This document shows positions 17,801 through 38,690 of a DNA stretch of 64,000 bases, piece after piece (within the stretch, counting starts at the first letter, position 1; each line of letters opens with the position of its first letter). A program made the translations under genes and the position numbers. The stretch comes from Owenia fusiformis. Taxonomy: Eukaryota; Annelida; Polychaeta; Sabellida; Oweniidae. The DNA is taken from contig CAIIXF020000001.1 in the NCBI GenBank assembly GCA_903813345.2, forward strand, positions 61,800,270-61,864,269, written 5' to 3'. Under the pieces are notes generated by a model. The model was not told the origin of the DNA, did no database searches, and was given only the letters and a program-made list of their open reading frames with translations.

Positions 17801-20800
17801 CTGGATCGATTATTTTAAACAGTGCTCTATCTCATATAGGGTAAAAATATCGAACAGCAGTGCACTCGGTAGGCTAAGTCTGTCATGTCAATTCGCTACT
17901 ATATATCGGGGGAAATGTGGAACTTTGAAAGTTGGTAACCCTGCTAGGAACGTTAGGTACCCGGTCGACCGGGCACCCGGTTACCCGGTCACCCGGTTTT
18001 TTACACAAACCCGGATCCAGGGGTCCTAGATTCGATTTCCAGATGGGCATTGAATTTAGCACACTTAAAATTTCTTTTTCTGGCTTGTTCATGGGGTTGT
18101 TACACTATACTCGTTAGTTAGTATTACGCCTGGGGCACGTTGGTAGCACCTGTCAATCAGATTTGGTCTCAAAATAGCTTGTCTGTATTTCAGGTTTATT
18201 GATTTGTGTAAATGGCTTTTTTCAGATAACAAGGGCTTTGTATAAAAAACCTCCTACCTTATACACACCTACCCACCTACGTGGAACATGATACAGTCAT
18301 TGAAGTGTCAATTTTAAAGATTATTAAATCTCAAAATAGCTCAAATTATTAACATTTCTACAATTCCAGCTTATTTTATGACTAGACAGATGAAAGATCC
18401 ATAAATAAAGGCATATATGCATTTAATATGTAATGACCCGAGGGCACCCCAGGGGAATAAATAACTAACGACCGCGAGCATAGGTCCAACAAGCCAGATA
18501 AAGAAATTGAAAGAAAGTGTGCTTAATTCGATGCCTCGAGTGGGAATCGAACCCAGCTGGGATGTAGTAGCAACTTGCTATCAAGGGTCCTTACAAATGC
18601 ATCTATAACTCATCATAAACTTAAATTTAATAAACTAAGATCTTTAAAGTTGAACCCTTCAAAGACTGTAGATAGACTTGTTAATGATAGTTACATGTAC
18701 CTTATAGTTCCACGATAAAAATTCTCAAAGAATTTGGCTTATCTGAGAAAATACGGAATGTACTAAAAACCCTTCGACCTACAACCCTTCGACCCTACGA
18801 CTAACTGGGTGTCAAGAATTTTTGGAATATATTTTATTGAAAAACCTTTCGACCTCTGATTTCCCAGTCCAGTTTACTAAATGATTACGTATACTGCCCT
18901 GTCAACCCTCACGCATTAGGCATGCCGTTTATGTCACGCCCCCCCCCCCCCCCCGTTGGCGGGTTGGAACAGCGAGCGCAAGCAAGCTGGAAAATTTTTA
19001 GGTGTGCAAAATCTGGCAGTGATCACTGAAGCTGTCCAAAGTTTGAAGGAAGGTGTTCAACATTTGGAAGTCACTCATGTTAGATGGTCCCAAGTTGAAG
19101 AGTAATAGGCTATGGAGCGATTTTTGCATATATAATTTGTGAAAACTGATAAGCATGGGACACTATCTTATGACACTTTGGCAAGTAGGCAGCCATTTTG
19201 AAAAATGGCTTCTAACTTAGTGTGTGTTATTTTGCATATTAACTCGAAAAGTAGTGGACCTATTTTTTCATATTTGATATGTTGATACTCATAAGCATGG
19301 CACATTGGCCAGGTGGCCATTTTGAAAAGTGGCCTCTATTTTAAAGTCTTATTTTACTTTTTTACTAAAACTTGAAAAGTAGTTGAACGATTTTGAGATC
19401 AAAAGTTCGATGGGATTTGCTCCACCTCGCGTTGCTGTTATCTAGTTCTGAAATGTTTCATATCTATGTTTAATAAATATAGTTGTATATATGTGTTTGT
19501 AATAACCTATGCCCTTAAAATGTATATATTCAGGGGGGGGGGCATTCGTGGGTTCAAGTGGGCCACTCCATTGGCCAAATATTCTCTTAAAATCAGTACA
19601 ATTTTTCACGATTCTGAGCATTTTCAAGATTTCTGGGCCACTTGAAAATTGTCAAATGTTCACCCCTTGATCCTTTTGAAAAACTTAAATTGGCAAAAGC
19701 TGGTTATACGAACCTGATATGACCTAGCTTGCAAGCTTTTTCATGAGTTTGTGTTTATTTTCGAACCCGGGCCTCCCGTGTGCTAAGCGAGCATTCTACC
19801 GCTAGACCACCGTGATATTATGAATGGTGGAAGTAATTAAACGCTACTTATTTTGAATGCTATGATTCGGAAGTGACGTCACTTAAAGTTCATCCCCGAA
19901 ACAACCCAAGATTGCGTTTCGGGGCAAAGTCCAGCTTAAATATCTTTAACTCTCTTGGGACAGATTCTTAAGTTCTATACACAAAGTAATATTTCCAGCA
20001 ACTTCATATGGACTGACAAATAGAAGGTCAAAGGGTTTTTATTATGTCCCCACCACGCATATTGTCGGCCTAGGCGCGTCCGTCCGTCTGTCTGTCCGTC
20101 TGTCCGTCCGTACGTCCGGGAGTTTTCTCCAAAACCGCTACAGATATCACCTTCAAATTTTCAGGGATAACTTATGAGTGCATACAGATGTGGATGAAAA
20201 AAAATTAACTCGATACCTACTTCCTGTCGGCCATTTTGAAGTCAAATGCTAAAATCCTTGTCTGCAAACTTTAAGAAAAACGGCTTCACAGTTGCTTTTA
20301 AAACTTTAACATCTTGTTCAGCTCACTTCATTCTAGATCTGATTAGGTTTTGGACCTGTTAGCTCAGTCATGTCAGCCATTTTGAATGTCTTAAGAAAAG
20401 TTAGCGCACGATAATACTTTGTATCATATTGAATGGTGTTTTTGAGTTTTCATATTCTAACTATTTAGTAGCTTTATAAATAATTTCAGATGTACTTTGT
20501 TGTTAAAGCCTATGTTGTTGTTAACAGTATTTATATGTGATAATTTTGTAAAAAGAAATCAGCAAAAACTCATGATCACTTTTTTATTGTCAGCCATTTT
20601 GGATTTTTCCGTCCTAAAATCTTGTCTGTGGAGTCTTGTCTACGTGTTTTCAGGTGAACCGTTTGGTGGATCAATTCTTGATTTTTAGGGATGATTCTTA
20701 GTATAAAAATCTAGATCTGATTAGTTTTTTGGCATTCTGGGTCAATGTCAAGGCAGCCATTTTGGATTTTCTGTCCTAAAATCTTGTCTGTAAAGTCTTG

Positions 20801-23800
20801 TCTACGCGTTTTCAGGTGAACTGTTTGGTAGATCAATTTCAATTTTTCAGGGATGATCCTTAATATGAAAATGTACAACTGATTAGTTTTTTGGCATTCT
20901 GGGTAATTGTCAAGGCAGCCATTTTGGATTTTCCGTCCTAAAATATTGTCTGTAAAGTCTTGTCTACGCATTTCCAGGTGAACAGTTCTGTAGATCAATT
21001 TCAAATTTTCAGGGATGATTCTTAGTATGAAAATCTAGATCTGATTAGTATTTGGGCATTCTGGGTAAATGCCAAGGCAGCCATTTTGGATTTTCCGTCC
21101 TAAAATCTTGTCTGTAGAGTTTTGTCTACGCATTTCCCGGTGAACCGTTTGGTAGATCAATTTCAAATTTTCAGGGATGATTCTTAATATGAAAATCTAG
21201 ATCTGATCAGTTTTTTGGCATTCTGGATAAATGTCAAGGCAGCCATTTTGGATTTTCCGTCTAAAAATCCTGCCCGTAAAGTCTTGTCTATGCGTTTTTA
21301 GGTAAACCGTTTTGTAGATCAATTTCAAATTTTCAGGGATGATTCTTAGTATGAAAATCTAGATCTGATTAGTTTTTTGGCATTCTGGATAAATGCCAAG
21401 GCAGCCATTTTGGATTTTCCGTCTTAAAATCCTGCCCGTAAAGTCTTGTCTACGCGTTTTTAGGTGAACCGTTTTGTAGATCAATTTCAAATTTTCAGGG
21501 ATGATTCTTAGTATGAAAATCTAGATCTGATTAGTTTTTTGGCATTCTAGGTAAATTTTAAGGTGGCCATTTTGGATTTTCCGTCATCAAATTGTGTCGG
21601 TAAAGTCTTGTCTACTCATTTTTAGGATAACCATTTGACAGGATCACCCATAGGTGGGGACATTTTGTACACATTTGTGTTCTTGTAAAAATATATTTCA
21701 AAAATTCTTGACACGCTGTAAGTCGTAGGTTGCAGGGTCGAAGGGTTTTTAGTACATTCCAGAAAATACTTGTCAAAAAGCGAATCACTTCTTTGGGACA
21801 CTGGTATATCTTATTCAGAAGATCTACCCATGCCTAGGGTTAGCAGTTAGCTAGATCAACAAGTTAAACCTTGCTGACCTTATTTCTTATCTGACATCCG
21901 TCGTTGTTGTTGCCTAACCGATTCTGCCCCAAGGGAATTCAGATTTATAAATTTAGCCAGATTTTGGTTTAATTTATTAAACCTGCTGCTTAAGCCTGCT
22001 AGCATGAGTTCTACCTTTAAGTGTCTGCTAATGATTATGCACTTGAACTTGTATTGGGCAAATATAACATGAAACCATGGACCTCTGTCAGTAGAACATT
22101 TTCTGTTAATTTCTTAGGTATTTGCGGTGCGGTCAGGGGGCGCTGCCGGTGTGGTTGTCAAGGGACCAGATGACAAGACTAGCCTTAGCTTCAGGTAACA
22201 GACTCATTTGTAACCACTTGTTCTTCCTATCTTTGTTAGTCAAGGTATCCAAGGTTTATTCTTTGTAATATGCTTGTCTATAGCATAATTCTTATGACAT
22301 CTCGCATTGCTCCATTTGCAGCACAGCTGGGTGGTTTTCTGTGAAAAGAATCACATATTCTTTAAGTCTGATTGAATAATTTTAAGTGGAACATAGAAAT
22401 TAATATCCTTTGTAGTAAACTTTGATATGCTGAACTGACTCAATATAAAAAAGAATTAAGATTGAATTCTTTAATATTTTAGGATGGAAGACAGGGGGAG
22501 TGTAATATCTATTAAATTTTCCTATGATATGAAAGTCCTGGCAGTTCAGAGATCACAAAAATCTGTGGTGAGTTTCAAAAATCTACACAATTTGCATTAA
22601 AAAAAAACCTGTGTATAAATGATCGAGCCAGAGGTTATTGATGCTAGGCCTTTACCATCAGGGTACTATGAATTATATAATCATTTAATAGATACCCTAA
22701 ACTATGTTTATTAAAAAATATTATCTTCCAGGAGTTCGTCAACTTCACCAATGGCAACATTGATACAATGGAATACTCACAGACCTGTAAGGTGAGCAAA
22801 TAAAACTATTCATTTTGCTTTTTAATTTTTTTATTTGTTCAATAATTAGACTCCAGATTGAAAATCTGGAGTCTATTGCTTTTGCCTGTTTTCTTCTTAT
22901 TCTTATTCTTATTATTCTTCCTCTACCCACGTTTTCTCGCTAACTAGAAGAGCTTACTTTAATCTGCCTACATGGCTAACATAGCTCAGTAACCTAGTTT
23001 CTCGGAAATTAGGTCAAATTTTTATCTAGGTCAAAGGTCAAGAACTAGGTCACGTCCTACATTTTCAACATTCTGACATTTATCTTCCTACATCTTTCAT
23101 CTAACTCCTTCATCTTACTTCCATCATGTAGCTTAGAAAAAGCCCTTTCATAAGTGTGCCATCAGATTTTTGATTACTCTTACCGATTTTGAGATATGGC
23201 GTCCAGAAAGTAGGTCAGAACAAAAAATTCTCCAAATTCAACATGTGAGTTATGAAATAAGTGTAGAAGTGTAGGAAGTTATGGCGTTTTGAAAGCTCAA
23301 AAATCGCTAAATTTGGTGCCTATGTTAAGTCAATGGGAAAAAAGACTTTTTCGAAGTGTAAAATACAAGATATAGACTGAGTACAGCTTAACATAATGAA
23401 TGGTTATAAAAAAGGGGACCTCAAAAGCTACATAGCTTCAAAATTTGGACACTAAAATGCCTAGGTCAAAATCTAGGTCAAATTCATTAGTTTTCCTTAT
23501 TTTTACGATTCTGACACTACACTTTAATAATTTACTTCAAAATTTTGTATACAGGTAGCAAAGAGTGTGCTTATAGTGTTAGCCTTTTGCCGTCAGAAGG
23601 TATTTTGACCCACTTTTGAGATATGGTGTCTAAAAAGTAGGTCAAAATAAAAAGTTCTCCAAATTTAACATATGAGCTATGAACTAAGGGTAGAATTTTC
23701 CCAGAAATCCGAATCTGCAAACCAAATTTCAATCCGACTTTCAGTTCGGAAGTTATGGCGTTTTGAAAGCTCAAAAATCGCTGAATTTGGTGCCCCATGT

Positions 23801-26800
23801 TATGTCAATGAGAAAAAAGATTTTTTTGAAGTGTAAAATACCAGATATAAACTGAGTACAGCTTAACATTATGAAAGCCTATAAAAGAAGGGGACCTCGA
23901 AGGCTATCTAGCTTTAAAATTTGGACACCAAAATGACTAGGTCAAAATCTAGGTCAAATTCATAGTTTTTCCTTATTTTTGCGATTCTGACATTACACTT
24001 TAATGATTTGTTTCGAAATTTTGTATACAGGTAGCAAAGAGTGTGCTTATAGTGTTAGCCTTCTGCCGTCAGAAAGTATTTTGACCCACTTTTGAGATAT
24101 GGTGTCTGAAAAGTAGGTCAAAATAAAAAGTTCTCCAAATTTAACGTATGAGTTATGAATTAAGGGTAGAATTTTCTCAGGAATCCGAATCTTTAAACCA
24201 AATTTCGATCCAACTTCTGATTAGATACTTATAGCAGTTTGAAGTCTCGAAATGATATGCGATATGATGATATCCCCATGTTAAGCCAATGGAGTCGAAG
24301 ATAACATTCTTAAGAGTTGTCTAAATGTCTATATTCTAGCTGACTCAGCTTATTCTGAATGACTCAGCTTACAAGTATTTGGATGACTCAGCTTAAAAAA
24401 AGTCTGAAATCTGGAGTCTTAAATTGAACTTGTTCAATTTACATGTCTAGTTATGCACTCTTTTTATATTTTGTGTGACTTTTGAAATAAGATTGAGGTC
24501 AATTAAATCAAAGCCTTGTGTTAAAATGTATTAGTGAAGTGATTTTGTGTTTGCAATTCATGAATTCCCCATCATAAGATGAACTGAATGCTGCATCCTG
24601 TTGAAATTCTGACAATTGCTTAACTCCCTGTTGAATTGTCTGTTGCCAAAAGGGTATAATACTAATATATTTTGGCATATTGTTGAGAAAAAATTCTGAG
24701 AAAGTCATAGACAGATTGTTTTTATATGTTTCAGGGCAAGAGTACTAGAATAATAGGGTTTAACTGGACCAATATCAATGAAGTTGTGTTCATTACAGAT
24801 CATGGCATTGAGTTCTACCAGGTTTGTATGTTTATGTAGTAACATTTTGAAATTGACCACTTGAGTATAAACACTGGAGTCATACCAGATCTTCAACAAA
24901 CACTCAAAGAATTTCCAAATTTTTATTTATTTGAAGGAATGAAACATGTATATATCCAAAATATACTTGATAAGCAAACATGATAGAAGTCAATAGAGAA
25001 AACCATAATAGTTCAGTATATCCTGATATCATATAGATGGCAGAGCTGATCAAAAAATATAATTGACAGACCACTAACACCATCTTTCAATTTAAAAGAT
25101 GTACATCATAACACTAAAAAAGGGCTTAAAAATGTTTTTCTTTACATGAAACCTCATTACAGTTAACCATTGAATTCAATTAATCATTGAATTTGTGTAA
25201 ATCCACGTTTTAACTTTCCTATTTCTGTTGAATGCTTCAGGTGATTCCTGAAACTTAACTTAATGTTCCAATCAAATGTAAAGGTGCATTTATAATGAAA
25301 GTGAAAGTGTTTGATTGTTGTTTGGATTTCCCTGACTTAAATAGTTACATACTGGTACAACCTTCAATTTATAAACGGTGAATACAACTAGAAACCTCAT
25401 TAAAGTTAACCATTGAATTCAATTTATCATTGAATTTGTGTAAATATATATTTTAACTTTCCTATTTCTGTTGAATGCTTCAGGTGGTTCCTGAAAAGCG
25501 AAGTTTAAAGTCCCTGAAGACATTTAGTGTCAGCGCAAACTGGTTTGTATGGCTGGTAAGCATCTTTCTTTTCATGTAAATGGGTTAATATATGAATTTT
25601 TGGAAATGAAGTCATTTATAGATATTCAGAATGCCCTTCTTCACAAGGCCCTTGTCATTTATTTTAAAGGTGTAATTTATTTAATTTTTATCCCTCCTTT
25701 GAAAACAAAATGACTAATAATCATATGTCCAGTATCAAAATTGTATTGCATTTTTGAAATTAAGGAACATCTTTAATTTATATTTTTATATATTTGTCTT
25801 TTGCAGCCAGAAAGTGCAGTTCTACTGTTATCAGCTGGTCCCTATGGAAACAGTATACATCCATTTCATTTTCGGGTGAGTTTTCAATTGAAATGTCATA
25901 GTATTATACAACAAACATTTATCAGTAAAACTTGTGAATGCAGAACACTTTTGACACCTCAAATATGTTATACTTGGAAGGTGTTCTCATAGAGGTTCAT
26001 TTTAAATTAAGTTAATGAGAATGGTACTTTAGTTTTCCACATATGGAGGTGTTCTACTTTACAGGTTCTTCTGTGTATTGAACTTGGAAATATATTAATC
26101 ATTACACTAAGTTTCATCATGATGTTTTTCTAGGCTGGTATGGTCTATAAGTTGCCTAAGTTTGAAATAGACATCCCTGTGATTCCAAAACCTGCCAAAC
26201 TGTGCCTCTTAGAGAGAGATGTCTTCATGGCCAACATGTAAGTACAGTGAAACCTGTATATCCAAATACCTGTCTAATCCAAACATTTCTTAATGTGAAC
26301 ACATATTTTCAGTTCCAAATTTATTATCTTGCATATTTTACTCACGTATATTTTGAATTGTGAACACCTGCTAATTGGTAAATTTCCAGTAGGGTTTGGA
26401 TGAGACAGGTTTTACTGTAAATAGTCAAATCACTAATGGGTTTCTAACATGGTGATAGTTCACGATCATATATATTCTTAGATTTGTTTTCTCTCATTGG
26501 GACTCACATTTTTTGCTGATGTTTGCCTTCTATTTATTTGTAAAGCTCATTGTACCATGACATGACCTTAGCTTGAATCAAATTTTTCTTTTGGGGGGGG
26601 TTCTATGTCTAATAATTTCTGCAAGTTTGTGGTCTGTTATAGGCTTGAGCTATTTATTTTGCTGACATATCCAGAGAGCGGTTAAATCGTAAAATTTAAA
26701 AGGATTTAAATAGGCCTTTTTGAAAGGCAAGGGCGAAATTGAATAAATATGCCCTTAAATGTTCCAAATGAAAGAACTTAGTCAAAAACTGGGATATTTC

Positions 26801-29800
26801 ACCAAAGTTTTTTTCCAAGTTTGGGGTGTTATGTGTTATTGGTGGATTAAAGATTGGAGCCAATGGGAGAAATAAATGCATGGTTTGTACATAGATTGAT
26901 GAATATGTTGTTAACATGTGCTATTAATTCAAATTCAAATATATGGTCCAGTTGATTTGTTTTTTTCACTTAAATCATTCATGAATTGAAGAAGTAATTC
27001 TTTTTTATTGTTATTTTGTCAATTTTCATCAAATTTTCACTGAACAATTGTTATTATTTTAGTTATGGACAACTATACATAGTAGTAGTACGTCACCAGG
27101 CCAAGGCAGGGGCTCCAGGGGCAGAAGTGGTTCTTTATTTATTGCAGAAGTGAGTACATTACGTTCATGTACAATATGTTCATTTTATTGTATGCGTCCA
27201 AGTTTCTATCCTCATATTGTACAGGTACAATATGTAAATCATTATGCTGTACATAATGTATGTACATGCACATATGTATTTTCTTACATTCCATTTACAA
27301 TATGTAAATCCTTATATTGTACATGTTCAAAAATACATCTCTTACCAAACTGAGCCTTTTTGTTATATTCTTCAATTCAAAAAGGAAAAATGGAATATTC
27401 AGTGTCACCTTTCAGATTAAAGTCATTTCTTTTTACTTTTTGTTTTCTGATTTCAAGGGAGAGTCCAGCAAGGAAAACTGATGTCCTTAGATTGGATATG
27501 AGTGGAAGATTTGCACTTCATATTGTGGATAACTTGGTTGTTGTACATCATCAAGCTTCAAAGGTAAACAGTTTTTTAAATCAAGCTTCAAAGGTAAACA
27601 GTTTTTTAAATCAAGCTTCAAAGGTAAACAGTTTTTTAAATCAAGCTTCAAAGGTAAACAGTTTTTTAAATCAAACTTCAAGGGTAAACAGTTTTTTAAA
27701 TCAAACTTCAAGGGTAAACAGTTTTTTAAATCAAACTTCAAAGGTACACAGTTTTTTTAAATCAAGCTTCTAGGGTAAACAGTTTTTTAAATCAAACTTC
27801 AAGGGTAAACAGTTTTTTAAATCAAACTTCAAAGGTACACAGTTTTTTTAAATCAAGCTTCTAGGGTAAACAGTTTTTTTAAATCAAGCTTCTAAGGTAA
27901 ACATTTTTTGTCTACAGCCTTATGTACGTAGAGAACGGTTCATGTGTTATATGGTGATATTGTGTCTTACATGTTTGTATTTATTATTGCTTATTGTTTT
28001 TATTTTTATACTTTCAGACATCTATGATATTTGACATTAAATTAGATGGGGAGTCAGATGGTTATGTCACATATCATCATCCAGTTCTCTCTCCTCTTCC
28101 TATGAAACCAAGCATCATTAGGCCAGTAGGTGAGGAGAGTTTGCGAAGACCAATTTTCATCTGTAAATAAAATTGGAAATGGTTTCTGAATCTAGAGCAA
28201 TTAAAATGGAACTATATTTAAACTATAATTAATTCAACACTTACGTGTGTTTCAGATGCCCCTTTAGGAGCAGAACTGGTGGAGTGTGAACTCTGTATCC
28301 TTTTATATACTCATGAATTAATATGTATTCTAAATTAACAGTGAGTGATAACTCATATCTGATGATTCATATCTTTGACATAGTCCTATCTCATAGAACA
28401 CAGTATTCTTTAACTCACTTGAAGATTCTCAGAGTTGGATTGTATTTCAACCAAATGTCGTCATTGATGCTAAATTGGGTGAGTGCATTAAATCCATCAT
28501 CCAATCACAATCGGTTTATAGTTCAGCATTTTAACAAAATAATGTATCATTATATAGTACCAGTAATTCAGAGTGATATGATGCATTCAAAACACTTCAC
28601 TTTTTCTATGTAGCCCTATGTTGATTATCCATCAACATTTATATTACACACACTTGTAGATTCTGAAAATGCAAATTTTGCCTTTAGGTTGCCTGTGGTA
28701 CGTGCAGTTGAAGCTAGAGCCTCTAGTTACAATGATTCCTGACAAGGTATTGTAAATATTTAGAATAATACAATAATACCTGTTAGGTTGAACAATTGTG
28801 TAAGCGTAACACCTATAGGTACCCAAGGTGTTCACAAAATTAATAAAAATAGATGGCATCAGTATTTCCATGTAAGCATTGACATTGTTTATTTCTTTCC
28901 CATGATGAACAGAATGAACAGAATTAGGAAGAAAAAGAACTTAGTTTGATTAATGTACTATTAATGTACACTGGCTTGTATTCCATTATGTACATGCTTT
29001 GTTATTTACAATGTAAATGTACTTTTATTTTGGAATGTAAATGTATTTGTAATATGTCATGTAAATGCCTTGTTGTTTACATGATTTCCAGTGTAAACTA
29101 ATAGACCTATTGCTCTTGAGACGTGACTGCAAGATGGTGATCCTGACAGTTTGCAAGCAAATGTTGACGCCAGGAACACAGACCAACCTGTCAACAATTG
29201 CAAGGATATTTGATAAACTCAACAAAGTCTATCGACAGTTTCTTGATATAGAGTCACAAAATCAGGTGAGATTTTAAGTCATTATCAGAAGAATTTTCAA
29301 GAAAATATTGTTACATGTAGAATCCGTACATGTACCATTTCACCAACTTGGATTATTGCTGAAAGTTATTAAAAGGTTACTTATACTACATTATGGCGGC
29401 TCCAGACAAATCTACTGGATCAGTCAATTTTTAAGAAGATATGTGAGTTTGATAAATTCAGGTTAATTGAAATCGTCTCCCTTAAAATAAAATCATCCAT
29501 AAATATTGGGAGGTTGAGAGGATGATGCAAGAGCCAATATAAACCCTGGTAATAGTCCTAACCATTTTGTTTTATTCATAGGAAAAGATTTATCCATTAC
29601 ACACAAATAGAAGATCCTGAAACATCACCAATAAAGGTGAACTTTGTGAAAATAAAAATATCCCTTTTACAAATTCTTACATGATTGTATTTCCCTTTAA
29701 ACAGTAGACTACATTAGCATGACTATTTGAGATTTCAAAATGGTCATACTTTTAGACATTGACTAACTTTCTATTTGGCTAATATTTTAATATTTTCTGG

Positions 29801-32800
29801 TTCCCTATTTATTTCAGCAAATGGAGACATTTTCTAGTCGAGAGCCAACTGCGACGCGTGTCCAGCACAATCCAGCCGTGATTGACCAATCAGACATGTA
29901 CACACATGTTTTTTCTGTATTCGTGGATAATAAGGTATTGGAATTAATTTTTATAATTATAATCAACTGATGCACTGGGGATCAACTGGAGACAAAGACT
30001 TAATTATTTGTTTCAGATGGCCAAACTTCCGGTAGAAGAATTTGGTAATAATTTTTGTTCTTGATTTTGTCACCTTTATCTATCAGATTTTAACTTAATT
30101 ATGTAGTGCATAGGTTCCACTTATGCAATATGATTGCATCTCAGATATAGATGAAGTAAATATTTCAATATTTACAAATTAGTTTCTTTGCATGGGAAAC
30201 AAAGAGCTTTTTCTATTTTGTAGTTTAATTATCCCATCGAACGAAGTTCGGAGGGATATAGGGAATGCCTCCGTCCATCCGTACGTACGTCCGTCCGTAC
30301 ATCCGTCCGTACGTCCGTCCGTCCGTACGTATGTCCGTCCATCCGTATGTACGTCCGTCCATCCGTCCGGGCAATAACTCAAATACTTGTAGCCCGATTT
30401 TGTTCATATTTTGTACACATATACCCTATGGCTGTAGAAGTTCTGCTCAAAAGCCGATTTTCAAAATGGCGGCCATTTTAGTGCCGGTTTTACATTGATT
30501 TAGGTGCAATATGTAAAACTGTAATAGCAATATGTTTTAAATTTAAAAACATTATATAGGACATTGATAAAGTTAGAAATGTAGATATTTAAGAAGCACA
30601 TGGCAGCCATCTTGAAAAATGGCAGCCTTTACTCGTTAATTTACGATTTTTGCTGTAACTCAAGAAGTAGTGGAGCGATTTTGTTCATATTTGGTATGTG
30701 AATACTATAAGCAACGCTTACTGTCTAATGACACTTTTGGTAGAAGGCGGCCATTTTTTAAAATGGCCGCCATTTAAACGTATTTTACTCGGCCTTTACT
30801 TGTTATTTTACTATTTTTGCTGTAACTTGAAAAGAAGTGGAGCGATTTTGTTCATATTTGGTATGTGAATACTATAAGCATGGCACACTGTCTAATGACA
30901 CTTTTGGTAGAAGGCGGCCATTTTTTAAAATGGCCGTCATTTAAACGTATTTTACTCGGCCTTTACTTGTTATTTTATGATTTTTGCTGTAACTTGAAAA
31001 GTAATGGAGCGATTTTGTTCATATTTGGTATGTGAATACTATAAGCATGGCACACTGTCTAATGACACTTTTGGTAGAAGGCGGCCATTTTGAAAAATGG
31101 CCACCATTTTAAAGTATTTTACTATAACTCGAAAAGTAGTTGAGCGATTTTGTTCATATTTGGTATGTGAATACTATAAAAAAAAGAAGCATATTACTTC
31201 TTCTGATGAAAACTTGGCTAGTAAGCAACCATTGTGGTGGCCTTTCTTATGTGTGTTATTTTATGATATTTGCTATATATTTCGTTTGTAAAAATGTCCA
31301 TCTCAGAAACATTGCTAAATTCTTGTTTTTAGAAATATTAAAGACTCACTTAACCAGTCAGCACACTAAATCATTATTGTAGCAAAAATGATACGAAGAC
31401 ATGTTTTATTTACAACGAAGACATTCATTTTATTTGGGTATTTATCAAAGTAGTAATATTCCTATGGAGGGTCACATTTGCGTTTGGAAGAACATTGTAG
31501 ATTTTTGACTCTTCGTTATCCCTTTAATTTGTACTTCAGATATTGAAATGTGCTGTCTTTGCTTCAAACTTTCTTCATTTCCTAAGCGAGGGAATTGTTT
31601 TGTAATTATCCAACAATTACGGATGTATTTCTTAGCTATAACAATATTTCCAAAGCAGAAGCTATGCACTACAAACAGGCCAAATATTTAGTTGAAATTT
31701 GAAAATTTCTGAAAACAATCAACCGGAAGCGCAACCATGCTAAAACAAAGACATCATGTCTATGTTTCCAGTTGATCCCTAGTGATATGATGAATTACAT
31801 GATATTGGTGTTAAATGAATTGTCATTGAATTTGTCATTCTCTCATATGTTTTTTTTATTTATTTATTTTGGCTTAAGGATATCAAGCACAAGTTTATGG
31901 TTGCAGTTCTCATAGAATACATCAGGTCACTTAACCAGTTCCAGATTCCTGTTCAGGTTTGTTTGTTTGTTTATTAATCGTTTGTTAATCTTAAGTATTC
32001 AATTTTACATAAGGAAAATGATTCTGTCTTTGTTAGAACAAAACTTTACTAAGAATGTTATGTTGTTCATATTTTAATTGCAGATTAAAGCCACTTGTCA
32101 ATAACTGGAAATATCTGAACTCTGACCTAAAATGATTTCTCTGACCGCTCCATATCTACTTTTAAGTGACCCGTGTTATTTTGTTCATATTTTTTATTGC
32201 AGCACTACCTTTATGAGTTGGTCATCAATACTTTAGTGCAGCACAATTGTTTCTATCAACTTCACCAGTTCCTGCAGTATCACGTCCTTAGTGACTCAAA
32301 GCCTATAGTAAGTTTAAAGCCACTTGTTTTAATACCAATTCCTGCAGTATCATGTCCTTAGTGACTCAAAGCCTATAGTAAGTTTAAAGCCACTTGTTTT
32401 AATACCAATTCCTGCAGTATCATGTCCATAGTGACTCAAAGCCTATAGTAAGTTTAAAGCCACTTGTTTTAATACCAATTCCTGCAGTATCACGTCCTTA
32501 GTGACTCAAAGCCTATAGTAAGTTTAAAGCCACTTGTTTTAATACCAATTCCTGCAGTATCATGTCCTTAGTGACTCAAAGCCTATAGTAAGTTTAAAGC
32601 CACTTGTTTTAATACCAATTCCTGCAGTATCATGTCCTTAGTGACTCAAAGCCTATAGTAAGCTTAAAGCCTCATAGTTTTACCCTTATAGTAAATTCAA
32701 GTGTTGAGATTAAAGTATTATGTGCCCTTAAGGGACTTGCTTTTCTATAATAATGTACAAAATGATAAAAGTTAAAAGCAATCAGGATAGACACAAATTT

Positions 32801-35800
32801 AAACATTGATTTTCCACTTGTTGAGCTTCCAATCCTTTTCATAATTAAATACATAAAGCAATCCTTCCTGCAGTATCCTATCATGTCCTTAGTGACTCAA
32901 AGCCTATAGTAAGCTTAAAGCCTCATAGTTTTACCCTTATAGTAAATTCAAGTGTTGAGTTTAAAGTATAATGTGCCCTTAAGGGACTTGCTTTTCTATA
33001 ATAATGTACAAAATGATAAAAGTTAAAAGCAATCAGGATAGACACAAATTTAAACATTGATTTTCCACTTGTTGAGCTTCCAATCCTTTTCATATTTAAA
33101 TACATAAAGCAATCCTTGAATCTCTACTATTGCACCAATGTTGCAGGATTGTATTTCACTTGTTGAGCTTCCAATCCTTTTCATATTGAAATACATAAAG
33201 CAATCCTTGAATCTCTACTATTGCACTAATGTTGCAGGATTGTATTAAATAAATATCATACTGTTGTTTCAGGCATGTTTGGTGTTATCCCTTGAAAGTG
33301 TCTATCCTCCCACTAATGTTGCAGGATTGTATTAAATAGATATCATACAGTCATACTATTGTTCCAGGCATGTCTGCTGTTATCCCTTGAAAGTGTCTAT
33401 CCTCCCACTAATGTTGCAGGATTGTATTAAATAAATATCATACTATTGTTCCAGGCATGTCTGCTGTTATCCCTTGAAAGTGTCTATCCTCCCAATTATG
33501 TTGCAGGATTGTATTAAATAAATATCATACTATTGTTCCAGGCATGTCTGCTGTTATCCCTTGAAAGTGTCTATCCTCCCAATTATGTTGCAGGATTGTA
33601 TTAAATAAATATCATACTATTGTTCCAGGCATGTCTGCTGTTATCCCTTGAAAGTGTCTATCCTCCCAATTATGTTGCAGGATTGTATTAAATAAATATC
33701 ATACTGTTGTTCCAGGCATGTCTGCTGTTATCCCTTGAAAGTGTCTATCCTCCCAATTATGTTGCAGGATTGTATTAAATAAATATCATACTATTGTTCC
33801 AGGCATGCCTGCTGTTATCCCTTGAAAGTGTCTATCCTCCCACTAATGTTGCAGGATTGTATTAAATAAATATCATACTATTGTTCCAGGCATGTCTGCT
33901 GTTATCCCTTGAAAGTGTCTATCCTCCAGCTCATCAACTAGCCCTAGATATGCTCAAGGTGAAGTACATTTTCAATACTCTGTAGTTAAGGAAGGAAATA
34001 GAAAAGCTGTCAAACAGTCTAGTTGTCTGTGCAGGCAATAACTCATATTCTGGTCTTGTTAAAATTTAATATAGGCTGATACCTTACGTACAGACACCTT
34101 GCGTATAGGGTTAACCTCTCTGACTAATACTGTTTTACTGCTTTGCTGCTATAGTCCTATTATTTTTGGCTGAGAGGTGCCATTTTATTAGATAGAGTTC
34201 ATCTCATCTCATCTGCAGTTCCTGTTAAGTTGTTTGATGTGCGGATTTTAGGCTCAAAGTTTTATATTTACAGTAATCATGTTTATTATGTCACCACCAA
34301 AAGTGGTGACATATTGTTATGGTCTCCGTTTTTTGCGACGGCGGTTGGTGGTTGGCGGTTGGTGGTTGGTGGTTGGAGGTTGGCGTCCGGCGTCTGTAAC
34401 AATTTCTTACAACTTCCTATAACTTAACAAATACTGTTTAGACTGACTTCAATTTTTTTCTAAATCATCTACATGTTCTCAGAAGTTCAAATCTGACTTT
34501 AGATTTGACATTTGACCTTCAATGACCTTCTCAAGGTCAAAAAGGTCTTTTTTCAACTTGCTTCACATTGACTAAATTTTTTTTCAAAATCATCTACATG
34601 TTCTCAGAAATTCAAATCTGACTTTAGATTTGACTTTAGATTTGACTTTAGATTTGACATTTGACCTTCAAATCTGACTTTAGATTTGACATTTGACCTT
34701 CAAATCTGACTTTAGATTTGACATTTGACCTTCAATGACCTTCTCAAGGTAAAAAAATGTCGAAAAGGTCTGTTTTCAACTTGCTTCAAATTGACTAAAT
34801 TTTTTTTTCAAAATCATCTACGTGTTCTCAGAAATTCAAATCTGACTTAAGATTTGACATTTGACCTTCTCAAGGTCAAAAAAGGTCAAAAAGGTCTGTT
34901 TTCAACTTGCTTCAAATTGACTAAAAAAAATTTCAAAATCATCTACGTGTTCTCAGAAATTCAAATCTGACTTTAGATTTGACTTAAGATTTGACATTTG
35001 ACCTTTAATGACCTCCTCAAAGTCAAAAAGGTCAAAAAGGTATTTTTTCAACTTGCTTCAAATTGACTAAATTTTTTTTTCAAAATCATCTACATGTTCT
35101 CAGAAATTCAAATCTGACTTAAGATTTGACATTTGACCTTCAAATCTGACTTTAGATTTGACATTTGACCTTCAATGACCTTCTCAAGGTCAAAAAAGGT
35201 CGAAAAGGTCTGTTTTCAACTTGCTTCAAATTGACTAAATTATTTTTTCAAAATCATCTACGTGTTCTCAGAAATTCAAATCTGACTTAAGATTTGACAT
35301 TTGACCTTCTCAAGGTCAAAAAAGGTCAAAAAGGTCTTTTTCAACTTGCTTCAAATTGACTAATTTTTTTTTCAAAATCATCTATATGTTCTCAGAAATT
35401 CAAATCTGACTTTAGATTTGACATTTGACCTTTAATGACCTTCTCAAGGTCAAAAAAGGTCAAAAAGATCTGTTTTCAACTTGCTTCAAATTGACCAAAT
35501 TCTTTTTTCAAAATCATCTACATCTTTTCAAAAGTTCAAATTTGACTTTACAAGTTCTCAGAAGTTCAAATCTGACTTTAGATTTGACTTTTGACCTTCA
35601 ATGACCTTCTCAAGGTCAAAAGGTATTTTCCAACTTGCTTTAAATTGACCAAATTGTTTTAGGTGGTGACATTTTGTCATGTTAATGCCTTGTTTATAAT
35701 TATTATTCATGCCACATATTCAGTGCCTCAAACTCTATGAATCACCCCTTGTTGCCAAGCTGCAACATGAATTTCCAACAGGAGTGTATAACTGACCAGA

Positions 35801-38299
35801 CTAATAGACATATGTCTTCTCTGAACCCTGGTGGGGTTTCCCCCCTCTTTTACATCCTGATACATCCATGACCTAAAAGTAAAGTCAAGGTTGTCAAACA
35901 TTTGATGAAGTAGCATGGTTGAGTTGGATTATTCTTTATATACACCATATTGTTGGTGTTTAGAAAATGCATGTATCTAAAGTTATATTTTATGTCTCCA
36001 TGTAATTGCAGAGACTGTCTACAGCCAATGAAGAAATTATAGAAGTTTTGTTGTCCAAGCAGCAGCTACTTACAGCTATTAGGTAATACATGTACATTCT
36101 AGCTAGTCTTAGGGTACCAACTACATGTATAGTGTCTGTCTAATTGAGATGAATTGTGCTTTCTGAAATTGGCCATGCCCCTTTATCATGCTCCTTTGTC
36201 ACGCCTCCATGCCATGTCCCTTTGTCACGCCTCCATGCCATGTCCCTTTGTCACGCCTCCATGCCATGTCCCTTTGTCACGCCTCCATGCCATGTCCCTT
36301 TGTCACGCCTCCATGCCATGTCCCTTTGTCACTCCTCCATGCCATGTCCCTTTGTCACGCCTCCATGCCATGTCCCTTTGTCACTCCTCCATGCCATGTC
36401 CCTTTGTCACTCCTCCATGCCATGTCCCTTTGTCACTCCTCCATGCCATGTCCCTTTGTCACTCCTCCATGCCATGTCCCTTTGTCACTCCTCCATGCCA
36501 TGTCCCTTTGTCACTCCTCCATGCCATGTCCCTTTGTCACGCCCCTTTGCCTGGCTATATTGTATATTTACTTGCATAGTTTATTATTTATAAATAGGAA
36601 ACTTTGTTGAAAATGAGACAAGTAAAATGGGTATTTCAATGCAGCAAATTGTATTAATTTATATGTGGGTTCTTATATGTAAAATGAGAACAGGCCCCTC
36701 TACCCTTTCTAACCTGTTATATACTTTCCAGGTTTGTTCGCAGTGTTGGAGCTGTGGATCAGGTATCAGCACGGAAGTTTCTAGAGGCAGCTCTAGTTGG
36801 CCAGGATAGTATGCTGTTCTACACTGTCTTTAAATTTTTTGAACAAAGAAACAGCCGTTTACGAAATAATCCAAGATTTGCACCAGGTACACATATTAAA
36901 TTTATGTGTTATTTGACACAAGATGCCTTTCAATATTAACCCCTTACCTTTTAAATTATCAATAGACTAGATGCAAGTAGAAATAATCTTGATTTACATC
37001 ATTAAAAATTCAAAAAATATTTAATAAGTGTTTATCAACTTTTAATTTAATTTTCTTTGAAAATGTGACTTCTAGGTTCTGGGAGATTCCCCATAGACCC
37101 CATGTTATAAAATCACAAAAGTGAAATATCTTTTCCTGTATTGGACAGACATATTCTTTTACTGGACATATTTTAATTTGTATAACTATCAGATACATAA
37201 GGGTAATATGAAAAGTGAACCATTAAAATGGATGGATATTCAAGTTTAAGAGAACTTTCTAATACCCTGCCTTTCTAATACCCTGCCATGTTTTCTGCCT
37301 GAATTAGCCACCTGGTAGTGAAACTAGTAACTACCTTCTGGCATCTGGGTTATTGAATAATGTTATTTTGACACAAAATAGAGTGCAATATTAATGTGAG
37401 TGCTGTGTAAGTGCTTGACATAATGTTTTGAGCCAATTGGCATCTGATTATATGTACATTAGTATAGGAAAATGTAGAACAGTATAGCATGAAAAATGCT
37501 CCATAATTCAATTTTGCAGTTTTGCATTTTGCTCAACATATTACAAAATTGGATTTATTGAGGTTCAGGCTTACAGTGTGAGGTATCATGTTGGTAAGAA
37601 ATAATTCAAAATATGTCGTCAAGAAAGAATAGACGTAACAATTCATTAAGAAATACATTTTTGATGATTTATTTTAGTGGATTGTAATCTGAAGTATACT
37701 ATAACTAGCAAATGTTGCAGCATTGTATTAACATGGTAGTGGATGCACTGGTGCATTCAGGGGAGGAGGGCAGATATTTGTACCCAAAATTTTGAGGGGC
37801 CTCAACTAAGTTAGTCTTTTTGGGGCTTATTTTTCATTTTAGGCCAATTTATCACTAAATTGGCCTTAAATTTTCTGGTTTAAGGAGCCCAGAATTTATT
37901 TTTTTTGAAATGTGGGCCCTCCACCCTGTTAGCTTCCAGATTCACCACTTGTATGTATGCATCATCTCTGAGACTAATTGTAATAAGATACAAGATATCA
38001 AGTACTCTCTTAATGCTTACTTATTGTTGTAGGAAGAGGTCAATGGATGTATAGTATAGTTCTTACAGGACGTAATTTATGTATAAGTATCTCCTAAATG
38101 GTTGTTATGGGAACAATTTGAAGTCATTAGTTGATTTATTTGATAAAGTGCCTGCAAGCATAAGTGGTTCTGTAAGCAAGTGTTCCATGTTCAATTACAA
38201 TCTGTATCTTTTTTTCCAGGAGAACACTGTGATCAATATGTGAAACACTTTGAAGAAGTCTTTGGTACAGAAGCCCTGGCTTTACCTATGGTCACCTAG
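14840..38299 (+). CDS. RMC1: RMC1 (C18orf8/Mic1), regulator of MON1-CCZ1
   Basis: Spliced gene with exons 14840-14950, 22118-22194, 22483-22567, 22732-22791, 24735-24821, 25484-25555, 25807-25875, 26134-26237, 27063-27149, 27458-27563, 28018-28129, 28256-28294, 28425-28478, 28688-28746, 29092-29265, 29818-29934, 30017-30031, 31879-31956, 32203-32307, 33890-33958, 36012-36082, 36732-36886 and 38220-38299. All have AG/GT borders and matching phases; the sum is 1986 nt, 661 codons, against 657 in human. Recognised blocks include FYVQLNSSPIRFE (exon 1), VFITDHGIEFYQ (5), YGQLYIVVVRH (9), LHIVDNLVVVHHQ (10), SWIVFQPNVVI (13), DQSDMYTHVFSVF (16), LVQHNCFYQLHQFLQYHVL (19) and FFEQRNSRLR (22). The N-terminal half is predicted beta-propeller and the C-terminal half is the Mic1 domain. 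RMC1 is the metazoan partner of the MON1-CCZ1 Rab7 GEF on late endosomes. The Met at 14840 fits the family; an upstream in-frame TTG is rejected. Intron 1 is 7.2 kb and exon 17 is only 15 nt. Five exons are involved in tandem duplications. Confidence 0.95.
15240..16412 (+). mobile_element. 5'-truncated, internally deleted LINE, copy 2, in RMC1 intron 1
   Basis: The frame at 15252-15644 carries the RT palm: GVPQGTVLGPLCFLVYINDM and the catalytic FADDSLLF. The frame at 15641-16123 carries YKSLVRPNLEY and VQRRAARFV through the C-terminus. They meet at GAAAAAGTGAA, which also occurs in copy 1. So a deletion, probably at this short homology, removed the thumb region and shifted the frame by one. 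The 3' UTR matches copy 1 and ends at GACATAGACC. It is in the same orientation as RMC1 and is inactive. Confidence 0.88.
16606..16989. mobile_element. 384-bp MITE with 10-bp target duplication
   Basis: The direct repeat ATAGCAAGTT flanks it at 16596-16605 and 16990-16999. Left terminus TAGTCTATATCC; right terminus reverse-complemented TAGACTATATCC; both continue into CTGAATTT. An internal hairpin (GACTGAATT and its complement) lies near the left end. A 9-10 bp duplication is characteristic of Mutator-like elements; this is inference. No coding capacity. The SINE resumes exactly at ACTACG after the right repeat. Confidence 0.8.
17071..18012. mobile_element. TIR element with ACCGGGT-repeat termini
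   Basis: Termini of about 65 bp are inverted copies: GTTTGTGTAAAAAACCGGGT, three further CCGGGTRA-type repeats, then AACGTTCCTAGCAGGGTTA. The interior is built from AACGTT/AACGTC-rich sequence with a degenerate internal duplication: the TTTTGAGGTTATTTCA block occurs near 17207 and 17443. The host SINE sequence GGATCCA is present on both sides (17064-17070 and 18013-18019), extensible to 10 bp depending on where the terminus is drawn. The ORFs inside are not protein-like. Confidence 0.8.
18431..18600 (-). mobile_element. tRNA-derived SINE, second copy, reverse orientation
   Basis: Read on the minus strand it gives TTGTAAGGACCCTTGATAGC, the B box GGGTTCGATTCCC (18542-18554), GAATTAAGCACACTT, TTATCTGGCTTGTTGG, CGTTAGTTATT and CCCCTGGGGTG. 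These blocks match the SINE at 16583-18150 in order. This copy lacks the segment with the A box, so it is internally deleted. It lies 280 bp from the first copy in the opposite orientation. Confidence 0.75.
19761..19817 (-). pseudogene. tRNA-Ala-like relic, 3' truncated
   Basis: On the minus strand the sequence gives a D arm (GGTCTAGCGGTAGAATGC) and an anticodon arm CTCGC-TTAGCAC-ACGGGAG whose loop places AGC (Ala). It then reads GGGTTCG and breaks off in the T loop. There is no complete T stem or acceptor stem, so it is a pseudogene or a SINE head rather than a working tRNA gene. Confidence 0.6.
20044..21663. mobile_element. Pearl-like element with ~162-bp tandem core (intron 1)
   Basis: Short inverted termini ATGTCCCCACC are at both ends. 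A GTCC/GTCT tetranucleotide tract follows at about 20080-20120. The core has six to seven tandem units of about 162 bp, each with TTTTGGCATTCTGG, GCAGCCATTTTGGATTTT and CCGTCCTAAAAT. This structure of short ends plus a ~160-bp tandem core matches the bivalve pearl elements. ORFs in the array are artefacts of the repeat. Confidence 0.75.
22848..24420. mobile_element. Tandem-core element with GACTCCAGATT ends (intron 4)
   Basis: The left end AGACTCCAGATT immediately forms a hairpin with AATCTGGAGTC (22849-22873). The right end is AATCTGGAGTCTT. A TTATTC microsatellite lies near the left end. The core repeats with a period of about 475 bp; GTGTAAAATAC, CTAGGTCAAAATCTAGG and TTTGAGATATGG recur. 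Three copies of GACTCAGCTTA lie near the right end. No ORF. It has the same layout as the 20044 and 34288 elements but unrelated sequence. Confidence 0.7.
25130..25497 (+). repeat. Tandem duplication of the exon 6 acceptor region
   Basis: The sequence from about AACCTCATTACAGTTAACC to CTTCAGGTGATTCCTGAAA (ending near 25252) is repeated 243 bp later, ending in the real exon 6 acceptor CTTCAG (25478-25483) and GTGGTTCCTGAAAAG. The decoy carries acceptor plus about 14 exon bases, then hits an in-frame TAA. It would create a truncated exon if used. Confidence 0.85.
27551..27910 (+). repeat. 30-bp minisatellite copying the exon 10 donor, 12 units
   Basis: Each unit carries the exon end CAAGCTTCAAAG followed by a donor GTAAAC and AGTTTTTTAAAT. 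Unit 1 is the real exon 10 end (donor at 27564-27565). About twelve units follow at 30-31 bp spacing, most keeping a GTAAAC or GTACAC donor. The first seven are in frame with exon 10 and would add 10 residues per unit (VNSFLNQASK) if a downstream donor were used. Confidence 0.92.
29582..29636 (+). other. Candidate extra RMC1 exon, phase unresolved
   Basis: TTTTATTCATAG precedes and GTGAAC follows. In one frame it reads KRFIHYTQIEDPETSPIK, which looks protein-like. It is 55 nt, so inserting it between exons 15 and 16 breaks the phase unless a very small exon precedes it; AATCCGTACAT (11 nt, near 29321) would fit. The transcript without it already matches human RMC1 in length. Confidence 0.35.
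30226..31300. mobile_element. Tandem-core element with GTCC-rich head (intron 17)
   Basis: It begins TTATCCCATCGAACGAAGTT, followed by a CCGT/ACGT microsatellite tract (30270-30370). Three to four units of about 167 bp follow (30610-31170), each with TTGTTCATATTTGGTATGTG, CTAATGACACTTTTGGTAGA and GGCGGCCATTTT. A right terminus was not found. ORFs of RTDGRTYG or SVRPSVR type come from the microsatellite. Confidence 0.65.
32269..32690 (+). repeat. 70-bp tandem array copying the exon 19 donor, 6 units
   Basis: GTGACTCAAAGCCTATAG recurs at 32291, 32361, 32431, 32501, 32571 and 32641, exactly 70 bp apart. Each unit contains the last 39 nt of exon 19 (from TTCCTGCAGTATCA) plus 31 nt of intron starting GTAAGT. 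Unit 1 is the real exon 19 end. A seventh donor copy occurs near 32892. Confidence 0.93.
32650..33250 (+). repeat. Second-order tandem repeats in intron 19 (~251 bp x2, ~84 bp x2)
   Basis: The block from GCCTATAGTAAGCTTAAAGC to CACTTGTTGAGCTTCCAATC is present twice with a spacing of about 251 bp. A shorter block starting CACTTGTTGAGCTTCCAATC and containing CTCTACTATTGCAC and TTGCAGGATTGTATT then repeats at about 84 bp. These arrays bridge the exon 19 array and the exon 20 array. Confidence 0.8.
33246..33930 (+). repeat. 87-bp tandem array copying the exon 20 acceptor, 8 units
   Basis: The junction TTCCAG/GCATGTCTG recurs at 33368, 33455, 33542, 33629, 33716, 33803 and 33890 (87-bp period), with a first diverged copy at 33273. 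Only the last leads into the full exon 20. The others contain the acceptor and 38 exon bases ending CTATCCTCC, then CAATTATGTTGCAGG. They lack a good donor. Confidence 0.93.
34288..35672. mobile_element. Pearl-like element with ATGTCACCACC ends (intron 20)
   Basis: Inverted termini ATGTCACCACC differ by one base from those of the 20044 element (ATGTCCCCACC). A GGTTGGTGGTTGGCGG tract follows the left end. The core is an irregular array of AAATCTGACTTTAGATTTGA, CATTTGACCTTCAATGACC and TTTTCAACTTGCTTCAAATT blocks, roughly 150-200 bp per unit, about nine units. No ORF. Confidence 0.75.
36203..36545. repeat. 26-bp minisatellite, ~13 units (intron 21)
   Basis: The unit is GCCTCCATGCCATG plus TCCCTTTGTCAC, with C/T variation at CGCC/CTCC. 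Because 26 is not divisible by three and the unit lacks stops, all three plus frames stay open, giving three overlapping spurious ORFs of 140-145 codons. Confidence 0.93.
36961..37345. repeat. Fragment of the 9478-11149 element in intron 22
   Basis: Begins AATAGACTAGATGCAAGTAG and ends in the CCACCTGGTAGTGAAACTAG region, colinear with 9777-10215. TTAA-flanked ends are absent. A short local duplication (CTAATACCCTGCC twice) is present near 37260. Confidence 0.75.
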
Positions 38300-38690
38300 C
38301 ACATGATGAATAGCATATGGACAATATGTGAAACACTTTGAAGAAGTCTTTGGTACATAAGCCCTGGCTTTACCTATGGTCACCTAGCACATGATGAATA
38401 GCATATGGACAATATTACATGATGAATGGCATATGGACAATATGTGAAACACTTTGAAGAAGTCTTTGGTACAGAATCCCTGGCTTTACCTATGGTCACC
38501 TAGCACATGATGAATAGCATATGGACAATATTACATGATGAATGGCATATGGACAATATGTGAAACACTTTGAAGAAGTCTTTGGTACATAAGCCCTGAC
38601 TTTACCTATGGTCACCTAGCACATGATGAATAGCATATGGACAATATGTGAAACATTTGGAAGAAGTCTTTGGTACAGAAGCCCTGAATC
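38232..38690 (+). repeat. Tandem duplication of the RMC1 terminal exon, 5 units
   Basis: CAATATGTGAAACA starts units at 38234, 38322, 38438, 38554 and 38642 (spacing 88, 116, 116, 88). Each unit repeats the terminal coding sequence for QYVKHFEEVFGTEAL and most repeat the stop at CACCTAG. In units 2 and 4 a GGTACATAAG variant gives an earlier stop. Units 2-5 lie in the 3' UTR of the normal transcript. Confidence 0.92.

Follow-up and report, generated by a model that had tools for sequence, protein, structure and literature searches.

The window analysed here is a 64,000-nucleotide stretch of the Owenia fusiformis genome (assembly GCA_903813345.2, contig CAIIXF020000001.1, positions 61,800,270 to 61,864,269), and it contains a gene for RMC1 in which short repeats lie across the edges of several exons. 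The genome sampled comprises 498 Mb in 525 contigs, and the window lies on the contig that we call C1. The gene is made up of two features, given in window coordinates as are all positions in RMC1 below:

14858 to 14950 (approximate ends), plus strand: RMC1 exon 1, found by tblastn with the human N-terminus (E 2.5e-8)
22118 to 38299, plus strand: RMC1 exons 2 to 22, coding sequence and introns, from a single joined frame, a protein match and Pfam domains

When spliced in silico, exons 2 to 22 give one unbroken open frame of 619 codons. Across query residues 1-616 the resulting model matches human RMC1 (9l0d_C) with an E value of 1.3e-248; its match to another solved relative (8c7g_A) has an E value of 1.5e-127, and the model contains the Pfam domains RMC1_N and RMC1_C. 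A first-pass annotation of this DNA had counted 23 exons, but the frame-joined model together with exon 1 gives 22, and the exons it numbered 19, 20 and 23 are exons 18, 19 and 22 here. The surplus exon was presumably an open stretch near 29.58 or 30.02 kb. Both were rejected as RMC1 exons, since neither fits the frame between its neighbours.

Five exons have repeats at an edge, four of which were listed by Tandem Repeats Finder (TRF):

25148 to 25496, plus strand: exon 6 acceptor pair, a 106-bp segment present twice at 243-bp spacing, the copies 93% alike (repeat search)
27550 to 27909, plus strand: exon 10 donor array, 30 bp × 11.9, 12 units (TRF)
32264 to 32671, plus strand: exon 18 donor array, 70 bp × 5.8 (TRF)
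33227 to 33927, plus strand: exon 19 acceptor array, 87 bp × 8.0 (TRF)
38234 to 38686, plus strand: exon 22 stop-edge array, mixed 88/116 bp (TRF rows of 88, 116 and 204 bp)

These repeats are real. The earlier statements that five exons are involved and that four of the repeats take in a splice junction were both borne out, with local duplications at the exon 6 acceptor, the exon 10 and exon 18 donors and the exon 19 acceptor, and with the coding end of exon 22 copied into the 3′ untranslated region (3′UTR). Each 106-bp copy at exon 6 (starting at 25148 and 25391) consists of the end of intron 5, an acceptor and the first 13 nt of exon 6 (25484-25555), and the functional edge lies in the last of the two. 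What had been described there as an array of 243-bp units is a true repeat, but it is a spaced pair rather than a continuous array and is absent from the TRF list. The first 30-bp unit takes in the final 14 nt and the donor of exon 10 (27458-27563), the first 70-bp unit the final 44 nt and the donor of exon 18 (32203-32307), and the last 87-bp unit the acceptor and the first 38 nt of exon 19 (33890-33958). At exon 22 the first 88/116-bp unit takes in the final 66 nt of coding sequence (stop codon included), and the remainder of the array is in the 3′UTR. Tandem exon duplication was rejected for RMC1, as no unit has a complete exon with both splice sites and each has one real edge. Also rejected was a transposon-borne minisatellite as the identity of the 70-, 87- and 88/116-bp arrays, which had no match outside their own locus in a genome search that skipped simple and very common words.

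Two further duplications lie between exons 18 and 19:

32628 to 33117, plus strand: 251-bp duplication within intron 18, beginning in the last 70-bp unit (TRF, 98%)
33066 to 33246, plus strand: 91-bp duplication within intron 18, overlapping the 251-bp and 87-bp repeats (TRF, 97%)

The 70-, 251-, 91- and 87-bp repeats form an overlapping chain from 32264 to 33927, and nearly all of intron 18 is nested duplication. Because of this overlap, exons 18 and 19 count as one cluster, and the earlier claim of five independent events does not hold. In intron 17 (32057-32083 and 32176-32202), reading by eye shows an apparent second copy, now diverged, of the acceptor region of exon 18, and beside it a 14-nt stretch that the 70-bp unit also has. 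The intron 18 cluster may have been built on an older duplication.

The surplus copies carry sequences that score like splice sites by position weight matrices built from RMC1's own introns with the true site left out. The exon 10 array has 11 decoy donors scoring 4.9-7.1 (true donor, 7.1), the exon 18 array has five further donors scoring 3.1-3.7 (true donor, a weak site, 3.1), and upstream of exon 19 there are seven decoy acceptors scoring 12.5-13.0 (true acceptor, 13.0), with a second acceptor-like site in each 87-bp unit that scores about 10-12. At exon 6 the decoy acceptor at 25241 and the true acceptor both score 6.4. Read-through from exon 10 is in frame and free of stops across six added units, so a decoy donor, if used, would lengthen the protein by 10 to 60 residues. 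Five 30-nt segments in the exon 18 array run from an acceptor-like to a donor-like site; all are open, in frame and read YHVLSDSKPI (one with a single change), and they cover only part of exon 18. We infer that exon definition selects the complete exon and leaves the decoys silent. Tolerance through hidden splice sites, as put forward in the first-pass annotation, agrees with this anatomy in that a whole exon is left and the decoys score near or equal to the real sites, while the silence of the decoys is its predicted part.

The arrays had also been read as a possible intermediate stage of intron gain through tandem genomic duplication. Several units have AG|GT-like junctions, and the route itself is known (PMC3443670). 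Against this, the donor and acceptor of introns 5, 10 and 18 are never in the same repeat: the donor of intron 18 belongs to the 70-bp array and its acceptor to the 87-bp array, and introns 5 and 10 each have one end repeated. Intron sequence and a complete splice site, donor or acceptor, are already present in the units, and the RMC1 model aligns to human RMC1 free of insertions at the array sites. Intron gain is thus an extremely improbable account of these arrays, and that claim was dropped.

In order to compare RMC1 with other genes, controls were collected from the same genome by a profile search with seven Pfam families. From 514 Pfam matches, 470 entered the exon list, and the 44 omitted were 17 kinesin copies, 4 SNF2 copies, 18 rows of a myosin cluster and 5 single matches. 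The 44 control windows consisted of 20 windows of 10 kb with the most exon matches (20 of 37 windows chosen from the first list) and 24 random exons with 1.3 kb on each side (24 of 90 drawn exons, with 224 eligible as stop-free and shorter than 400 bp). Together they contain 148 exons and 43 arrays with units of at least 25 bp. To score as an edge array, an array had to extend 10 bp or more to each side of an exon edge. Windows L028 and L029, whose arrays were already visible in the hit lists, were kept outside all counts, and their genes were excluded when exons were drawn at random. Counting in L023, which overlaps L016, stopped at position 6143. At least three of the automatically placed splice borders were wrong, and edges were re-read by eye for edge arrays and some near-edge arrays. 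This took out L042 (about 4 bp of exon in the array), brought in L031 and moved one donor in L012, leaving the total at 14. An array in L038 (39 bp × 2.8, at a poorly bordered exon) did not score as an edge array, nor did the L016 array at 761, which takes in 4 bp of exon.

Arrays were significantly more frequent on exon edges than expected by chance. Each array was collapsed to one unit and placed in the unexpanded gene, a null that we prefer because arrays grow after birth and lengthen their host intron, so that the question is where the first unit lay. Under circular shift of the collapsed arrays, 14 of 43 control arrays were on an exon edge against a mean of 3.94, an excess of about 3.5-fold, and none of 20,000 shifts reached 14. 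Taken separately, the 10-kb windows gave 10 of 32 against 2.94 (2/20,000) and the random exons gave 4 of 11 against 1.02 (235/20,000); the set without its richest window, L012, gave 11 of 37 against 3.52 (1/20,000). When the collapsed null was computed by formula for the first 40 control windows, 4.29 edge arrays were expected and 14 of 40 observed (P 2e-5). With only exons that have a stop-free match, and automatic borders, the count was 10 of 43 against 2.61, one of the ten (L042) having failed by eye. Restricting the comparison to arrays touching the 200 bp beside an exon gave 14 of 23 against 5.12 (automatic borders, last four windows excluded), and the excess persists at 200, 300 or 500 bp.

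The control edge arrays are divided equally between donors and acceptors, with seven of each. Reading by eye shows that in L018 an adaptin-family exon has its final 69 nt and donor in about 34 copies, that L014 contains 132 nt of an adaptin-family exon and its donor in about 23 copies, and that L015 contains 41 nt of a chaperonin-family exon and its acceptor in about three copies. Window L012 (G000:C11:133694-143693) has three edge arrays in one chaperonin-family gene and is a second case like RMC1. Assembly artefacts are a very improbable source of such arrays. Copy numbers may be inexact, as artefacts would have it, but the units differ by substitutions, arrays of up to 3.4 kb are complete in the assembly (L014), and there is no evident reason for artefacts to prefer exon edges.

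The excess is found among the purer arrays. At 90% identity or above, 11 of 26 arrays are on an edge against 2.11 expected, and 8 of 15 against 1.34 when three or more copies are also required, while more diverged arrays show no excess (3 of 17 against 1.82; 5345/20,000). Longer survival of edge arrays would predict the opposite, an excess among diverged arrays, and is disfavoured as the cause; birth or expansion is favoured instead. Base composition was also considered. The mean guanine-cytosine (GC) fraction is 0.316 for off-edge arrays against 0.342 for their flanks, 0.391 for edge arrays and 0.423 for exon matches. The edge-array value is in line with their exon content, and exon GC is unlikely to be the cause of the excess because off-edge arrays are not GC-rich.

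By these measures RMC1 is at the high end yet ordinary for this genome. TRF arrays cross a border at 3 of its 21 exons from 2 to 22 (exons 10, 18 and 19) and at 14 of 148 control exons (9.5%, interval 5.3-15.4%), which do not differ (Fisher P 0.45). Array coverage from exon 2 to the 3′UTR of RMC1 is 0.27 against a control mean of 0.119 (20 windows, three of them higher). The first-pass annotation had treated RMC1 as unusual, with a local bias toward exon borders, and had named TRF and permutation over other genes as the way to check it. Run on the 44 windows, that comparison gave overlap above chance, and it supports the bias as a feature of the sampled genome and not of RMC1 in particular.

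Arrays away from the borders of RMC1 bear on the tests within the gene itself:

20591 to 21637, plus strand: 162-bp array in intron 1, off border (TRF; transposon origin assumed)
30270 to 31123, plus strand: 4/16/20-bp and 167-bp arrays in intron 16, off border (TRF; transposon origin assumed)
34280 to 35690, plus strand: transposon-borne arrays in intron 19, outside the border set (dispersed element)
36193 to 36543, plus strand: 26-bp array × 13.5, purely intronic, in intron 20 (TRF)

The stretch at 34280-35690 recurs widely in the genome, with at least 80 matches (the best 40 of 4044 candidates were scored). The 26-bp array had been called the sole purely intronic repeat outside transposons, but the 251- and 91-bp duplications are also confined to an intron.

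We think it reasonably probable that the exon-edge arrays are duplications which were born across an exon edge, tolerated and then expanded, and that they are over-represented in this genome. In the proposed sequence of events, the breakpoints of a short tandem duplication would fall one in an exon and one in the intron next to it (for exon 22, in the 3′UTR). The original exon would stay intact at one end, and surplus copies with their decoy splice sites would land in the intron with little harm. Slippage or unequal exchange could then enlarge the number of units, to about 2 to 34 copies in the observed cases. Duplications lying wholly within an exon would alter the protein and mostly be purged, whereas those with one end in the exon would be nearly neutral. 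Retention of the whole exon and purging of exonic duplications would together place exon-derived arrays at edges, including the stop edge of exon 22.

Several observations weigh against this explanation, some of them from RMC1 taken by itself. When complete arrays are placed randomly from exon 2 to the stop codon, no excess appears: arrays contain 4 of 41 borders (mean under random placement, 7.69), and 3 of 5 clusters take in a border (mean under random placement, 2.86). Under the collapsed null, 3 of 11 arrays are on a border against 1.94 (P 0.30) when arrays assumed to be transposon-borne are kept. Omitting the four taken as transposon-borne gives 3 of 7 against 0.97 (P 0.044), where transposon origin was tested for one stretch (34280-35690), and counting intron 18 as one event gives 2 of 4 against 0.27 (P 0.02). 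RMC1 was picked for its striking look, so its P values prove little, and the excess in RMC1 alone is marginal or absent depending on the choice of null. The control excess in turn rests on the collapsed null, the sole null applied to the controls, and in RMC1 no excess is left when whole arrays are placed. Units are just 77-79% alike in three of the 14 edge arrays (L012 at 7922, L023 and L043). Control exons were annotated only where matched by the seven conserved-family profiles, in 44 windows, and all of the evidence is the DNA sequence of one genome.

Some of the RMC1 results are those expected if chance and tolerance were sufficient, that is, if duplications fell evenly along genes and those at borders were kept since the exon remains intact, with no bias toward borders. 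Consistent with this are the RMC1 permutation of whole arrays, the collapsed null with the assumed transposon-borne arrays kept, and the likeness of RMC1 to the control exons. The controls argue otherwise, through both the 14 of 43 count and the persistence of the excess close to exons, and we regard chance with tolerance as unlikely. Neutrality alone gives no excess over arrays confined to introns, which means that either exonic DNA or the border itself must duplicate more often.

A process acting at splice borders, such as co-transcriptional R-loops, polymerase pausing or breaks at junctions, could generate the duplications. It would accord with the equal effect on donors and acceptors and with the excess in purer arrays, but the exon 22 array lies on a stop codon with no junction, although this is one case. 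The anatomy fits hot exonic DNA and hot splice borders alike, a further point against our explanation. Exonic DNA is favoured over splice borders as the substrate because of the single stop-edge case and the equal number of donors and acceptors, and we consider the splice-border process distinctly unlikely. Duplication born across exon edges would then most likely reflect a bias in birth or expansion rather than survival, with exonic DNA as the preferred substrate.

We put forward more tentatively that exon edges in this genome are a general birth hotspot for minisatellites. Through a mutational process, duplications would begin several times as often in exonic DNA as in introns; about one in ten conserved exons would have an array, and the arrays would amount to a large reserve of extra splice sites and in-frame mini-exons, ready-made and silent. 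If this is true, intron growth, alternative splicing and possibly new introns would share one mutational source that could be measured in well-annotated genomes. Many exon borders would also be arrays of equal splice sites, and thus a natural test of how the splicing machinery chooses among identical sites.

Several other repeats were seen in the course of the control search. In L028 (546-3389; G000:C2:23266345-23269188) part of a kinesin exon is repeated about 18 times (159 bp × 17.9), with most copies open over 52 codons and an acceptor-like site upstream. In L029 (1374-2029; G000:C2:4915373-4916028) the acceptor and 83 nt of an SNF2-family exon are present in about five copies (137 bp × 4.8). 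Twelve similar myosin-head matches (profile positions about 18-84) occur at irregular spacing in G000:C9:37986009-37994334, and are probably alternative exons of a muscle myosin gene. The array at 1-1588 of L026 (91 bp × 17.7, with a high GC of 0.42) resembles the edge of an unannotated exon and was scored as off-edge.

Tandem exon duplication likewise leaves extra exon sequence beside an exon, but there the whole exon is copied, whereas the RMC1 units carry one exon edge only. A literature search, limited to one library and the terms used, returned no report in titles or abstracts of a genome-wide excess of arrays at exon edges. Tandem duplication of exon DNA containing AGGT is an accepted route of intron gain (PMC3443670), with cases in Drosophila (PMC2891723). 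Like RMC1, it involves duplicated DNA with sequence resembling splice sites. On that route, duplication of an exonic stretch with AGGT leaves two copies flanking a new intron, whereas in RMC1 an existing edge and part of the intron were copied into an old intron. Internal tandem repeats at exon-intron boundaries have been described in human segmental-duplication genes (PMC2812944). Like those of RMC1, they have units of minisatellite size that span exon-intron boundaries and were detected with TRF, and a TRF minisatellite across such a boundary was found at RMC1 exons 10, 18 and 19 and at 14 of 148 control exons. The human repeats differ in being in recent paralogs with variable copy number, in having novel introns shown by transcripts, and in that half of them are in coding exons. 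The arrays reported here are known from DNA alone and are in conserved genes, a single exon edge is copied, and their excess over a shift null was measured in a sample of the genome.

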